Source: a virus. From it: a DNA stretch of 25,181 nt. This document shows positions 2,907 to 14,794 of this stretch, one piece after another (positions within the stretch are counted from its first letter, which is position 1; every line of letters begins with the position of its first letter). Where the stretch lies: positions 1-25,181 of the IMG/VR virus record IMGVR_UViG_3300030406_005449, one strand, 5' to 3'. Made by a program: the position numbers and the translations under genes. Below the pieces are notes generated by a model that had not been told where the DNA came from, did no database searches, and worked only from the letters and a program-made list of their open reading frames with translations.

Positions 2907-3238
2907 TAGCTCTTTCCAAATTTCTGCTTTTGCGATTTAGGTGGATCTTTTTTGCTGCCACTAGGTCCACTCCAAAAAGTTTTGTTTGCCCAATAGGCAG
3001 CACTTGTTGGACCCTTTGCTATGTTTTTTGCGTGACGAGCCTTGAAGCTTTTGCGAGCTTCTTTCGAGTAATTGTGTCCCATCTTCTGGTCGCCAAAACG
3101 AATCAGCTTCATCTTCTTGCCATCCCTTACAGCAACGATTGCTTTCTTTGTGGGATGCTTAGGCGTCCGCTTGACCTTGTTTAACCCAGACAAACCAACC
3201 TTCTTCAGCCTTTTTTTCTCTGCATCAGTTAAGCTCAT
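2906..3238 (-). CDS. Lysine-rich conserved phage protein (110 aa)
   Basis: A basic protein with the recognisable order VGLSGLNKVKRTPKHPTKK, IRFGDQ, then SFKARHAKN and SAAYWANKTFW. This 'phage RHxKN...YWAN' pattern recurs in many uncultured marine phages and in a DUF family whose number I do not want to assert. The role is unknown; the RHAKN segment and charge suggest binding to DNA or RNA. It overlaps the upstream 84-residue gene by four bases. No signal peptide or membrane segment. Confidence 0.72.
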   Translation of the reverse strand: MSLTDAEKKRLKKVGLSGLNKVKRTPKHPTKKAIVAVRDGKKMKLIRFGDQKMGHNYSKEARKSFKARHAKNIAKGPTSAAYWANKTFWSGPSGSKKDPPKSQKQKFGKS

Positions 3239-3489
3239 TTACGGTACCTTGCCGTCTTTTTAGCTATCTTTTTAGGTTGCTTTGAGTGTTGTTTGCCCTT
3301 TTTGGTGTCGGCACGTTTCTTGCGGCTAGTCGCTGCATACTCTTTGTCACTTAAAGCTTCACGAGCTTTCTTAGGCAAATACCTCTCGCCCGTTGCTTTT
3401 TTACCTTGCGTAGATGGCTTACCAGACTTGGTGCCCCACTTCTGCTTGGTCCATTTTTTAAGTGACTTCTGAGACTTTTTTAAGGCCAT
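3235..3489 (-). CDS. Lysine-rich conserved phage protein (84 aa)
   Basis: About a third of the residues are Lys or Arg. The pattern SLKKWTKQKWGTKSGKPST, GERYLPKKA, and ATSRKKR is widely conserved in small phage proteins of unknown role. The C-terminus KQPKKIAKKTARYRK is nearly all basic. It starts at ATG 3489, overlapping the end of the preceding gene by one base. Acting as a nucleic-acid binder, perhaps packed with the genome, is inference from composition and from its place among head and connector genes. Confidence 0.7.
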   Translation of the reverse strand: MALKKSQKSLKKWTKQKWGTKSGKPSTQGKKATGERYLPKKAREALSDKEYAATSRKKRADTKKGKQHSKQPKKIAKKTARYRK

Positions 3490-11134: not shown

Positions 11135-11813
11135 CATCGTCCTCGGAATAAAGATTATCAAAGACCTGGTTTACATCCAGCGTGTAATCTAGGTCAGACT
11201 TACTGTAGTGAATGTGTTGCGACGGCCTGAAGTCAGGAGCGCCTTCACCTAGTTCCCACCATGCAGGGTGAGAAACTCGTACACGGTTATTGGGCAGTGC
11301 GACAATGTTTCCTGTCCACTTGCCAGCATCCAGCAGCTCCATCACATGAGACTGCTTGTGTTGTGCCGGATCATCAGCAATCTCATTGTTGGTGTAGTCT
11401 ACCGTAAATAAATACTTTGCCGGGTAAAACTCACCATCGATCTTTGCTATCCAAGGGCACGGCGTACAACGGTCTAAGACGTACACCGAGTGCTCCCTAG
11501 AGCTGCAATCCCAAGGCTGCGCTGCCCAAGTCGGCATCGGTTCAGGCCAAGCATCAAAAGGTGTGTCACCCACCAAGCCTGTGATCGGCATCCTCGCCCA
11601 CATGGCACCACCATGCACATTGGGCATGTCATCATCGTCGTAGCTTTCTGCGCCAGTAAACACCACCTGGAAGCTCAAACTACGGCAAGGCATCGTTGTG
11701 ACGGCAATTGCCATCGCGTGTAGAAACTCACCGTGGTACTTGATGTGGTTGTGCGTATATTCTTTTCGCACCCAGCACTTGAAGTACGGTATGTTGCTTT
11801 GCAAAAAAGCCAT
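11118..11813 (-). CDS. Conserved terL-portal interval protein of unknown function (231 aa)
   Basis: The 231-residue protein has many aromatic and His/Cys residues: NVHGGAMWARMPITGLV near 65, AQPWDCSSREHSVYVLDRC near 98, then FYPAKYLFTVDYTNNEIADD, KWTGNIVALPNNRVRVSHPAWW, and FRPSQHIHYS. These motifs are well conserved in uncultured marine phages, always beside the terminase, and no function is known to me. Invariant-looking Trp, Cys and His residues suggest an enzyme-like or metal-binding fold, but no named family fits. It starts at ATG 11813, sharing one base with the terL stop. Confidence 0.75.
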   Translation of the reverse strand: MAFLQSNIPYFKCWVRKEYTHNHIKYHGEFLHAMAIAVTTMPCRSLSFQVVFTGAESYDDDDMPNVHGGAMWARMPITGLVGDTPFDAWPEPMPTWAAQPWDCSSREHSVYVLDRCTPCPWIAKIDGEFYPAKYLFTVDYTNNEIADDPAQHKQSHVMELLDAGKWTGNIVALPNNRVRVSHPAWWELGEGAPDFRPSQHIHYSKSDLDYTLDVNQVFDNLYSEDDDEKED

Positions 11814-13318
11814 TAATAATAGTTCGCTCTTCTGCTGTAGTGTGGCTCGTCCTCTTCGTCAGTATTGAGCTTGAGGAAGCCGCCCTGGCGGAATCTCAAC
11901 AAAGCCTGCGTCGATGAGTCCACTAGGTCATCATGTTCACCAGCAGGGAAAGCAGCAAACTCTTCGATCACTTCCTCTGCAAATCTTGTCGATGGTGCCC
12001 ACACAATACCTGACGCAAACAGATCTGACACCGCGTTCACCCGGCTAATCTTATCGTTGCCACGAGACGGGGTGTACTCTGCGACAGGTATACCCATTGC
12101 CCGTAGCTCAAAGATCAGTGGTGTACCAGCAGCCTTTGCCTCCACAATCGTGGCATCGGGTTGCCAGTCAACATAAAACTCTTGTGCCGCCTTTTTCAGT
12201 TCAGGGAACTCTAAACGCTCCTTGAAGGCATCTAGCAAGATGATATTCGGTTGAGTGACACCATCGTCATCCGGGCGATAAAACACGCCCCAGGTAGTGC
12301 AAGCAGAGTAGTCAGAGCGTTGCGTCTTGAGAAACGCGGTATCCCATGACTGAATAATAAACTCACAAGGCGGTGGACGCTCTTCTTCCCATTCACGCCA
12401 CCACTCTCGCTTAACTAATGCACCCTCCTCGGAAGTCGGGTTCTGCTGGTACTGGGCGTTCCATTTAGGCGACGGCAGTTCATTACGCAGCGCCGTCAGC
12501 TCTTCCAATGACCAGAACTCCGGCCATAAGGCGTTTCCTGAAGGCATGATCGCTGGAAACTCAATCACCTCCCATTCATCGACACCAACACGTTGAACGG
12601 ATGATTTAATGATCTGTCCAGTCAAATCCCGCTTATGCCAGCGGGTCATCACAACAATGATGGCACCACCCGGTTGTAGTCGTTGTCGCGGTCCTGACGT
12701 GTACCAGTCATACACCCGATCAAAGACACTGGGATCTGCACTCTGGCCTTCCTGCTCAGAATGCGGGTCATCTATGATTAATAGATCGGCACCTTTACCT
12801 GTTACAGCACCACCCACACCAATAGCGAAGTATTCACCATTCCTACTGGTGCTCCATCGCCCAGCAGCCTTGCTATCAGATCGTAACCCCAAATCAGGGA
12901 ACACCGATTTGTAGTCATCACTATCTACGAGGTTTCGCACCTTGCGGCCAAAGCCAACAGATAACTCAGCGGTGTGTGCGGTCTGGATAATCTTTTTGTC
13001 TGGAAACTTACCTAAAAACCAAGCAGGCAACAGATAGGAAGCAAACTCTGATTTGGTATGCCTGGGCGGCATATTCACAATTAATCTTTTGAGTTCACCC
13101 TTCGCCACGCGCTCAAAGGCATCAGCCATGATCTTGTGGTGCCGACCTTCAATAAAAGCAGGCCATACATACTTGGTGAAACCCATGAAGCTTTCACGGG
13201 CAGACTCTTTCTTCTCAGCTTCCTCAAGATCCTCCAACAAGGAAAGGATCTCTTTCTGCTCTTCCAAAGGCATATCAGGAAGGGCTTGCAGTAATCTTGA
13301 GTCAATTCTCTTTGACAA
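11813..13318 (-). CDS. terL: Terminase large subunit (501 aa), TTG start
   Basis: The DNA-packaging motor and nuclease. The ATPase has a Walker A-like PPRHTKS at residues 84-90 and Walker B LLIIDDPH at 179-186. The RNase H-like nuclease shows QSWDTAF (Asp 326), IVEAKAAG (Glu 393) and EHDDLVDS near 461-468, giving the acidic metal-binding set. Length and spacing fit complete terminases. The start is probably TTG 13318, because a stop (TAA) lies two codons upstream and residues 1-15 look coding; ATG 13273 is an alternative. No strong ribosome site is visible. It is the first gene after the 520-base non-coding region. Confidence 0.9.
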   Translation of the reverse strand: MSKRIDSRLLQALPDMPLEEQKEILSLLEDLEEAEKKESARESFMGFTKYVWPAFIEGRHHKIMADAFERVAKGELKRLIVNMPPRHTKSEFASYLLPAWFLGKFPDKKIIQTAHTAELSVGFGRKVRNLVDSDDYKSVFPDLGLRSDSKAAGRWSTSRNGEYFAIGVGGAVTGKGADLLIIDDPHSEQEGQSADPSVFDRVYDWYTSGPRQRLQPGGAIIVVMTRWHKRDLTGQIIKSSVQRVGVDEWEVIEFPAIMPSGNALWPEFWSLEELTALRNELPSPKWNAQYQQNPTSEEGALVKREWWREWEEERPPPCEFIIQSWDTAFLKTQRSDYSACTTWGVFYRPDDDGVTQPNIILLDAFKERLEFPELKKAAQEFYVDWQPDATIVEAKAAGTPLIFELRAMGIPVAEYTPSRGNDKISRVNAVSDLFASGIVWAPSTRFAEEVIEEFAAFPAGEHDDLVDSSTQALLRFRQGGFLKLNTDEEDEPHYSRRANYY

Positions 13319-13405
13319 AACTTATCGTGAGCCTTTCATCGTCAGCCTTCTATCGTAAGCTATCGTTTGTAGCTTTCGTTCGAAGCCTTCTTTTGCCTGC
13401 TTACC

Positions 13406-13429
13406 CGGCCCCGACCCCCCAAGGGGCCG
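13406..13429. other. GC-rich hairpin in the terL leader
   Basis: CGGCCCC and GGGGCCG form a perfect 7-base stem around a 10-base loop. No T-tract follows on either strand, so it is not an ordinary Rho-independent terminator. It separates the two copies of the 14-base leader repeat. Confidence 0.5.
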
Positions 13430-13456
13430 TTCTAAGCCTTCGAGTGATAGCTTTCT

Positions 13457-13472
13457 ATCGTAAGCTTACGAT
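13457..13472. promoter_or_regulatory. Perfect 16-base palindrome (operator candidate)
   Basis: ATCGTAAGCTTACGAT is a perfect inverted repeat and contains the recurrent ATCGTAAG leader motif facing its mirror image. Two motifs in palindromic arrangement about 140 bases before terL look like a dimer-binding operator. Confidence 0.5.
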
Positions 13473-13507
13473 GAACAACTATCGTCTATGTTAGCAGATT
13501 CGTTGAC

Positions 13508-13524
13508 TTGACAAGCTTTGTCAA
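13508..13524. promoter_or_regulatory. TTGACAA/TTGTCAA inverted repeat
   Basis: Perfect 7-base arms flank a 3-base GCT centre, and GTTGAC/GTCAAC (13502-13507, 13520-13525) makes a second nested pair. Both strands carry TTGACA, a sigma-70 -35 sequence, but I could not find a convincing -10 at 16-18 bases on either strand, so I call an operator-like element rather than a promoter. Confidence 0.4.
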
Positions 13525-13748
13525 CCTACACGACAAAAAAATTTATATTTTTTTTAGGGGGCTGGGACTCCTGGCGTAAATTCCTACAAAAAAAGGGGCA
13601 CGTTGTATGTTGTATGTTGTATTAGCCAGAAAAAAGGGGTATTTGTTTGAGCGTTTTACTATGTATATACAGGTGGGTGCGCGTGTGCGTTAGGGGGGTG
13701 TGGGGGTGCAGCCAGGATCGCCTGGTCAGGGAAAAACGTGCGCCTTTA

Positions 13749-13830
13749 TCTAACGGTTGTACTATGTTGTGCGACATTATCTAACCGTTGTACTATGCTG
13801 CTCCCCTTAGTCTAACGGTTGTACTATGTT
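13749..13830. repeat. Three 20-base direct repeats with exact 31-base period
   Basis: Copies at 13749-13768, 13780-13799 and 13811-13830 read TCTAACGGTTGTACTATGTT with two changes in the middle copy. The starts are exactly 31 bases apart (about three helical turns), so bound proteins would line up on one face. The core AAC-N-GTT is a small palindrome whose centre base is G, C, G. They lie just past the end of terS, ahead of terL. A small-terminase binding site (pac or cosB type), iterons, or a promoter array are the options. Confidence 0.75.
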
Positions 13831-13839
13831 AGTCGTCAG

Positions 13840-14316
13840 TCAGTGGAGGGGGTGGTTGTCGTCACTGCTACTACTATCTACCAACTGCACATCTTCTAAT
13901 CGCCGCTGTATCTCTGCTGCGACTTCTTCTGCTGATCGTTCGTTGCTTTCTATCACCTGCTTGTCACTAAACAGCGCCACTGTCCGCCCTAGCAGTTGGG
14001 CAGCCTGAAGCTGGGCAGGTGTTGGTTCTTCTCCAGTGGCTGGGTCAATGCCGTCCTCAGTCCATCGGCGCAGCTTGGCTACCACCAGCTCCCTATCCGT
14101 GACCGCTTTACGAGCTATAGCGCGCTCCTTTTGCCCGATCAGTTGGTCCACCCTACTGGAAACGTACTGGTTCGCCATGAGCTTGCTCGACTCGTTGTGT
14201 ACCGTCTGATCCTTGCCTTTGCTGGAGTATGCCTCACGGTAAGCATCGGCGTACGAGCTACCATTAGCCACGAGGCGGGCGAACGCTTCCTGCTTTGGGG
14301 TTAACTTCTCTGTCAC
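13840..14316 (-). CDS. terS: Terminase small subunit (158 aa)
   Basis: The N-terminal LTPKQEAFARLVANGSSYAD followed by AYREAYSS is the helix-turn-helix entry typical of Terminase_2-type small subunits, which recognise the packaging site and load the large subunit. A central helical oligomerisation part and an acidic/Ser-rich C-terminus follow. I choose GTG 14316 as the start because AGAGG lies eight bases upstream; GTG 14325 would be directly abutting that site. The gene ends ten bases beyond the 31-base repeat array and is transcribed from the divergent gap toward terL. Confidence 0.83.
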   Translation of the reverse strand: MTEKLTPKQEAFARLVANGSSYADAYREAYSSKGKDQTVHNESSKLMANQYVSSRVDQLIGQKERAIARKAVTDRELVVAKLRRWTEDGIDPATGEEPTPAQLQAAQLLGRTVALFSDKQVIESNERSAEEVAAEIQRRLEDVQLVDSSSSDDNHPLH

Positions 14317-14412
14317 GGGCTGCACCTCTAGTAAAGGTACATTCTATAGCTGCCACCATTTGGTCGGGAGATCACGCACAATAGCCGCTCTATGTTTTTT
14401 GTTGTTTGGGGG

Positions 14413-14441
14413 TTGTACTTCGTGAGTCTATGCCCTATATT
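14413..14441 (+). promoter_or_regulatory. Sigma-70-like promoter for the early plus-strand operon
   Basis: TTGTAC (14413-14418) and TATATT (14436-14441) are separated by exactly 17 bases; -10 matches the consensus at five of six positions and -35 at three. It stands about 57 bases before the first plus-strand gene, in the 181-base divergent gap between terS and that gene. The surrounding GGTTGTACT also occurs in the terS-terL repeats. No clear promoter for terS was found in the same gap. Confidence 0.5.
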
Positions 14442-14497
14442 CCGAACTCGACGTTTTGAAACACACCACCAACTAGGCAAACGAAGGTAAACGAGAA

Positions 14498-14794
14498 ATG
14501 AAACAGACAATTGATATCTACGACTTCCACCGTGCATTTAATGTTATGGGTCGAGATGATCCATTCACTTACGAAGGACTATCCGCCATCTTCGACATGC
14601 TCACAGAGATAGAGGAAGGCACCGGAGAGGAAATAGAACTGGACGTTGTCGGCATCTGCTGCGAATTCACAGAATACGAGTCGCTGGAGGAGTTACAGAA
14701 AAGCTACCCCGACATCCGCAGCCTTGACGACCTCGCGGACGAGACCATGTTCGTGATTGCTGAGAATGACCACCTGATTGTTCAGGACTATTAA
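14498..14794 (+). CDS. Very acidic conserved phage protein, first early gene (98 aa)
   Basis: The first gene of the plus-strand operon encodes a 98-residue protein with about 26 Asp/Glu and only 5 Lys/Arg. Central segment FTYEGLSAIFDMLTEIEE, then ELDVVGICCEFTEYESLEEL. The ICCEFTEY pattern is recurrent in small phage and plasmid proteins of unknown function. Such charge in an immediate-early protein would fit a DNA-mimic anti-host factor, but this is inference. Ribosome site AAGG is ten bases before ATG 14498 within GGTAAACGA, a leader shared with a later gene (20476). Confidence 0.7.
   Translation: MKQTIDIYDFHRAFNVMGRDDPFTYEGLSAIFDMLTEIEEGTGEEIELDVVGICCEFTEYESLEELQKSYPDIRSLDDLADETMFVIAENDHLIVQDY

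Follow-up and report, generated by a model that had tools for sequence, protein, structure and literature searches.

The origin of phage lambda (ori) is of the iteron type. In phage SPP1, the replication origins consist of direct repeats and an A/T-rich unwinding element and are bound by an initiator, and the TerS protein binds regions on both sides of the packaging cut site (PMC6316719). The DNA-binding domain of SF6 TerS, by comparison, binds independently of repeats (PMC4737164).

The locus described here belongs to a marine phage represented by a 25,181-base IMG/VR virus record (IMGVR_UViG_3300030406_005449), the whole of which is referred to as the window. Its late genes (tail, capsid, portal, terL and terS) run leftward from nt 14325, and the early genes run rightward from nt 14498. 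The primase/helicase is of the phrog_239 type. The products of terS (nt 13840-14325, minus strand; 161 aa, Terminase_2-like with an HTH domain, the profile match being below the Pfam cut-off) and of terL (nt 11813-13318, minus strand; 501 aa) both match terminase families. The gap between the two genes is 521 nt and carries, at its terS end and near the terS stop, an array of 31-bp repeats. A near-identical array with exactly the same spacing is present in otherwise unrelated marine phages, and it therefore probably serves as a common docking site, for a DNA-binding protein of a replication origin or a gene switch, and not as a private packaging signal.

The array and its conservation among terminase relatives

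The array (nt 13738-13830) is made up of three tandem 31-bp units (nt 13738-13768, 13769-13799 and 13800-13830), with palindromic cores of AACGGTT (nt 13752-13758), AACCGTT (nt 13783-13789) and AACGGTT (nt 13814-13820). The original prediction, of three 20-base repeats beginning at nt 13749, 13780 and 13811 with a 31-base period and lying between terS and terL, was confirmed by a check of the sequence. The repeat family in register is longer than first noted, as the units extend over 31 nt and match the first unit at 84-87% identity. Of the 20-mer copies, 1 and 3 (nt 13749-13768 and 13811-13830) are identical (20/20 bases), and copy 2 (nt 13780-13799) has two differences, one at the centre of AACNGTT and the other a T/C change near the end. 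The 18-mer TCTAACNGTTGTACTATG occurs three times with no mismatches, and no further site with up to three mismatches was found on either strand of the 25,181 bp. Its chance expectation is 0.05, and none of 100 shuffles reached three sites. The three repeats are real, lie where they were predicted and are beyond chance.

Relatives were recruited independently of the repeats, 80 by TerL and 24 by TerS, and L138, L145 and L154 were added later. In every lineage with at least two clear AACNGTT copies beside terS the spacing is 31 bp (or 62 bp across a degenerate copy). The half-palindrome with a changing centre, described at the outset for the window, is kept across the relatives, with all four letters seen at the centre. 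Among ten window-type genomes (whole or in large part), six heptamer pairs are found at a spacing of 31, all of them at the array locus, against four pairs for all other spacings from 15 to 60 combined, none recurring. The copies are direct, in a single orientation, and number from two to six across the array-bearing phages. Exact phasing, kept in relatives, argues fairly for a protein that would sit on one side of the DNA, as originally proposed.

An alignment with related phages had been put forward as a check on the repeat number and spacing. The 31-bp spacing is exact across the array-bearing relatives, the copy number varies, and some lineages have no array (L003-L006, L009 and L015). Of the otherwise near-identical sisters L019 and L020, only L020 has kept the array, its loss from L019 being near-clean, and no relocated array was detected elsewhere in the array-less genomes. 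Since these sisters differ by such a loss, and many relatives are without an array, it is not indispensable. At the array position of L132/L134 and L181, period-23 tandem repeats of another kind were noted by eye.

The 31-bp unit in phages with unrelated terminases

A pattern search of IMG/VR with three YAACNGTT motifs at 31-bp spacing, the flanks being left unspecified, returned 31 stretches, about twenty of which are marine contigs carrying three to six copies of a unit close to that of the window (ACAACAGTTAGACTAAGGCGCACCACAGAGT against ACAACCGTTAGACTAAGGGGAGCAGCATAGT). These marine phages (group 2) include L203, L204, L210 and L220. L210 and its relatives have a 416-aa ORF that is also a TerL, though from a different family (phrog_2 first); next to their array, an ORF specifies an AT-hook protein that has no family match and is TerS-like by position and eye only. 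At the flanks, which were unused in the search, the three window units match group 2 with shuffle p-values of < 0.00025, < 0.00025 and 0.0005, and their scores with a negative-control family (unrelated, 31-spaced, from isolate records) are -34 to -50. A 30-bp control pattern gave many matches in IMG/VR, and is not a clean control because these are mostly isolate-derived records and none has the window's terminase family. The exact two-unit pattern had no match among 84,980 bacterial and archaeal species genomes, and the group-2 array had no blastn match in cultured phages.

A tighter two-unit pattern returned the same groups and also L379 and L383, whose TerL proteins are 55-58% identical to that of the window. 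The L383 array occupies the region between the divergent early and late genes, separated from terL by about 2.5-3 kb and with no terS adjoining. In all three lineages the array precedes the late operon, at the early/late junction or close to it, and its placement in group 2 and L383 indicates that its constant companion is this junction and not the terminase. The orientation of the array relative to the late operon is opposite between groups 1 and 2, and in group 2 a clear TTGACA-N17-TATAAT is present between the array and the late genes.

The window units are nearer to group-2 units than are most units of the window's own relatives. This resemblance, like the varying copy number, would suit junction DNA that is passively exchanged among phages of one habitat, multiplied by slippage and without function. 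Drift, however, would not keep the AACNGTT arms, a free centre and an exact spacing of 31 across divergent lineages, and the array also covaries with a second repeat block of the spacer (the R block, see below), so that passive sharing is highly improbable.

Two further observations were made in these comparisons. The isolate-derived records L205, L206, L207, L211, L219 and L226 carry a different 31-spaced array, CAACTGTT, with TTTTACA/TGTAAAA palindromes, that is unrelated to the window unit. A small basic protein of 84 aa encoded in the window (nt 3235-3489; phrog_14910) is about 80% identical in phages that are otherwise unrelated in their genes.

The terS-terL spacer and its possible role in DNA packaging

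From terS to terL, the spacer of window-type relatives shows the order array, C-run, core, R block, AGGAGTCCCA, A/T tract, a TTGACA/TGTCAA palindrome with an extended -10-like box, and then lineage-specific palindromes around a GC hairpin, followed by terL. A reading of the sequences places the most conserved part of the spacer, the core (nt 13636-13671; TATATACATAGTAAAACGCTCAAACAAATACCCC on the minus strand), between the array and the R block; in relatives its sequence is TATACATAGTAAAACGCTCAAACGATTACC, and parts of it can still be recognised where TerL identity falls to about 66%. The C-run element (nt 13692-13709; CACCCCCACACCCCCC on the minus strand) has a conserved position beside the core. 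Over nt 13636-13709, the C-run is followed by an alternating pyrimidine-purine stretch, which in L008 and L014 runs without a break for about 34 nt. Most spacers also carry TTTTTCTGA (or TTTTCCTGA) twice, once on each side of the core (L003, L006 and L008).

The R block (nt 13602-13623, plus strand) consists of three GTTGTAT at a 7-bp period, a motif also found in the array. Within the 25 kb of the window GTTGTA(C/T) forms only two clusters, the array and the R block, both confined to the neighbourhood of terS. Most window-type relatives have a counterpart of the R block, which differs between lineages in step with the array. Across seven lineages, the stretches shared by array and R block are longer when both come from one genome than when the pairs are mismatched (3/5040 permutations reach the observed sum). 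The simplest explanation would be one protein that reads both blocks, the alternative being copying between them.

Closer to terL, the AGGAGTCCCA element (nt 13563-13572, minus strand) is nearly invariant among relatives. The A/T tract (nt 13534-13556) is a candidate for unwinding or bent DNA, and comparable tracts occur ahead of terL in HTVC027P, phage 023Pt_psg01 and DSL-LC04. A putative late promoter directed toward terL (nt 13488-13524, minus strand) combines the TTGACAAAGCTTGTCAA palindrome with the extended -10-like box TGCTAACAT and has a conserved position among relatives; it is called here as a candidate because a strict sigma-70 scan of the window gave no promoter site. The terL leader (nt 13319-13487) carries the lineage-specific palindromic repeats ATCGTAAGC/GCTTACGAT around the GC hairpin (nt 13406-13429). 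These palindromes are wholly different by lineage (GAACGTTC; TATCGATA; AGTAG-CTACT; GGAATATTCC), and yet they match one another within a genome, as would be expected if they evolved together with a binder. No known RNA family was detected in nt 13200-14600.

On the other side of terS, the divergent early/late intergenic region carries two GTTGT motifs (nt 14401-14423, plus strand), one of them within GGTTGTACTTCGT. Another cluster of roughly 7-bp repeats is seen upstream of terS in L018, L014 and L138, for example GGTCATA GGTCGGG GGTCGTA in L018, to which the GTTGT pair of the window is related. Directly upstream of terL, a distant relative (L201; G005:44044-44232) encodes a lone LexA-type DNA-binding domain (PF01726, E 1.3e-12), and similar ORFs are visible upstream of terL in L070, L076 and L078-L081.

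The original prediction placed a TerS-binding packaging site, like cosB, first among the possible roles of the array. The corresponding arrangement in SPP1 would be a pac region (pacL-pacC-pacR), in which TerS binds the array and the R block and TerL cuts the conserved core between them. The window spacer does lie between terS and terL, with the core flanked by two covarying repeat blocks, and the SPP1 TerS provides a precedent for binding to the flanks of a cut site (PMC6316719). The window TerS carries an SF6-like HTH domain and a weak Terminase_2 match, and its predicted structure gave small terminases as the top matches, among them the SF6 DNA-binding domain at a probability of 0.94; the E-values were poor throughout. 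Against a pac, group 2 has the same unit together with an unrelated TerL and the AT-hook, TerS-like ORF, and in L383 terL is some 2.5 kb away from the array, which has no terS next to it. The array is also situated 3' of terS, not over the terS promoter and start, and can be lost.

Two natural TerS recombinants bear on the same point. L085 (3646-4101) combines a window-like HTH with an L008-like C-terminus and has an L008-like array, and L006 (386-853) carries the L008 HTH next to a spacer without an array; in both, the HTH was exchanged without a change in the array. When the other spacer blocks were taken out, the correlation of array distances with TerS distances was 0.06, and with the HTH alone -0.01. 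The strongest partner in this analysis of spacer blocks against TerS distance was the terL-proximal palindrome block, a result that is not decisive. As the HTH swaps leave the array unchanged and the correlations are near zero, the array does not follow the DNA-binding part of TerS. This outcome is not final for a pac, because the SF6 domain binds independently of repeats; that such binding does not need repeats also counts against a pac (PMC4737164). Given the kept spacing, the losses in some lineages, the sharing with unrelated terminases and the lack of TerS tracking, a private TerS/cos-type packaging site is not favoured, and an SPP1-like pac is unlikely. As first choice, a TerS-specific pac or cosB site was demoted by the group-2 and L383 arrays and by the TerS domain swaps.

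With regard to fixed genome ends of the lambda cos type, the spacer is crossed by many contigs and is internal in three relatives whose own ends overlap; those contig ends that fall in the spacer have no single base in common. A pile-up of contig ends was considered as a sign of genome ends. It was hinted at in the TerL-recruited contigs; the portal-recruited contigs gave a mild excess (hand count) with no common base, and the candidate was rejected.

A possible replication origin or late-gene control site, and comparison with known systems

The reading we favour, if tentatively, is that the array represents iteron-like accessory sites of a replication origin or control region. The array, its kept spacing, its sharing by unrelated phages at the junction, the motif that links it to the R block, and the A/T tract close by are seen directly; from these we infer protein binding, an initiator as the bound protein and a start of replication at the array. 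Tandem, same-facing sites about three helical turns apart could hold several molecules of one sequence-specific protein on one face of the DNA. The array would then be part of the control region where early and late genes meet, rather than of the terminase genes themselves. An initiator may bind at the array and, in the group of the window, also at the 7-bp R block, and once bound might help to unwind the A/T-rich tract close by, which adjoins the putative late promoter. In common with iterons, the repeats are tandem and direct, share a single orientation and are separated by a near-integral number of helical turns, and an A/T-rich stretch can be seen near the array in the window (nt 13534-13556), in group 2 and in L383. 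L019 compared with L020, and other array-less relatives, show that the repeats are not indispensable; the array is therefore not counted here as an iteron-type origin, though it may still be an accessory set.

A phrog_239-type primase/helicase can work without iterons, as in T7-like replication, and this counts against the reading. No protein family specific to the array-bearing genomes, and no candidate initiator shared by them, was found in these records, which may be incomplete. The detrended cumulative GC-skew minimum speaks for an origin in that it lies no more than about 1.7 kb from the start of terL in six relatives and inside the array in 3/4 group-2 contigs. The signal coincides with the change in gene direction, and GC skew was rejected as proof of an origin for this reason. 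Third-position skew in the window showed no trace of an effect of replication.

Alternatively, the array and R block could serve as operators or activator sites through which a phage or host regulator, bound in phase, acts on the promoter next to terL and so adjusts when or how strongly the late operon is transcribed. In window-type relatives both blocks are upstream of the promoter-like segment that precedes the late operon, palindromic repeats are found downstream of that segment, and in group 2 the TTGACA-N17-TATAAT sits between the array and the late genes; presence/absence and copy-number variation would also suit a tuning element. The distance from the array to the promoter segment (about 200-300 bp) is, however, far for a classical operator, groups 1 and 2 carry the array in different orientations relative to the late operon, no other promoter carries array units, and the strict sigma-70 scan returned no promoter in the window. 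Control of late genes is possible but somewhat unlikely. Of the alternatives to packaging offered originally, origin iterons or a control element fit better than a packaging site, and a set of phage-polymerase promoters is unlikely, as array units occur nowhere else in the window and a search of nine relatives, run without a positive control, found no match to a single-subunit RNA polymerase. It is also possible, though less likely than not, that the array is a defined 31-bp tandem element of the junction, common to unrelated marine phage groups and gained or lost independently of the terminase. Its binder would then come from the host or be a phage protein not recognised as such, and the array would be a common docking site in marine phages that has so far gone uncharacterised.

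If the favoured reading of iteron-like sites at a control region is true, the array offers a sequence handle on the early-to-late switch or the start of replication in uncultured marine phages, for which almost no cis elements have been characterised. The occurrence of the 31-bp unit in phages whose terminases are unrelated points to a shared protein, which one DNA probe could serve to retrieve. It also cautions that a repeat beside terS need not be a packaging site.

Compared with the lambda cosB R-sites, the array likewise has three repeated sites adjoining the terminase genes, but it differs in its equal tandem spacing, its position 3' of terS and a unit that is not tied to one TerS, and the spacer differs in having no consistent contig ends at one base. 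The pac regions of SPP1 and SF6 resemble the spacer in having repeats that flank a conserved core near terS, a promoter inside the region and a TerS with a similar HTH; the array, unlike these, is 3' of terS, has its unit in phages with unrelated terminases and tracks the early/late junction instead of terS. With iteron phage origins (SPP1 oriL/oriR and lambda ori) the array shares tandem direct repeats, a nearby A/T-rich stretch and a single locus per genome between gene blocks. It departs from them in its 31-bp period, the lack of a recognised initiator gene, its loss in close relatives and the second motif block at a 7-bp period. The group-2 arrays (L203, L204, L210, L220 and others) have a near-identical 31-bp unit with the same period, at the early/late junction by the late genes, and differ from the window in their unrelated TerL, higher copy number and opposite orientation relative to the late operon. 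No earlier description of a 31-bp unit shared by terminase-unrelated marine phages was found in the literature searched. Iteron-like arrays as such are already known.
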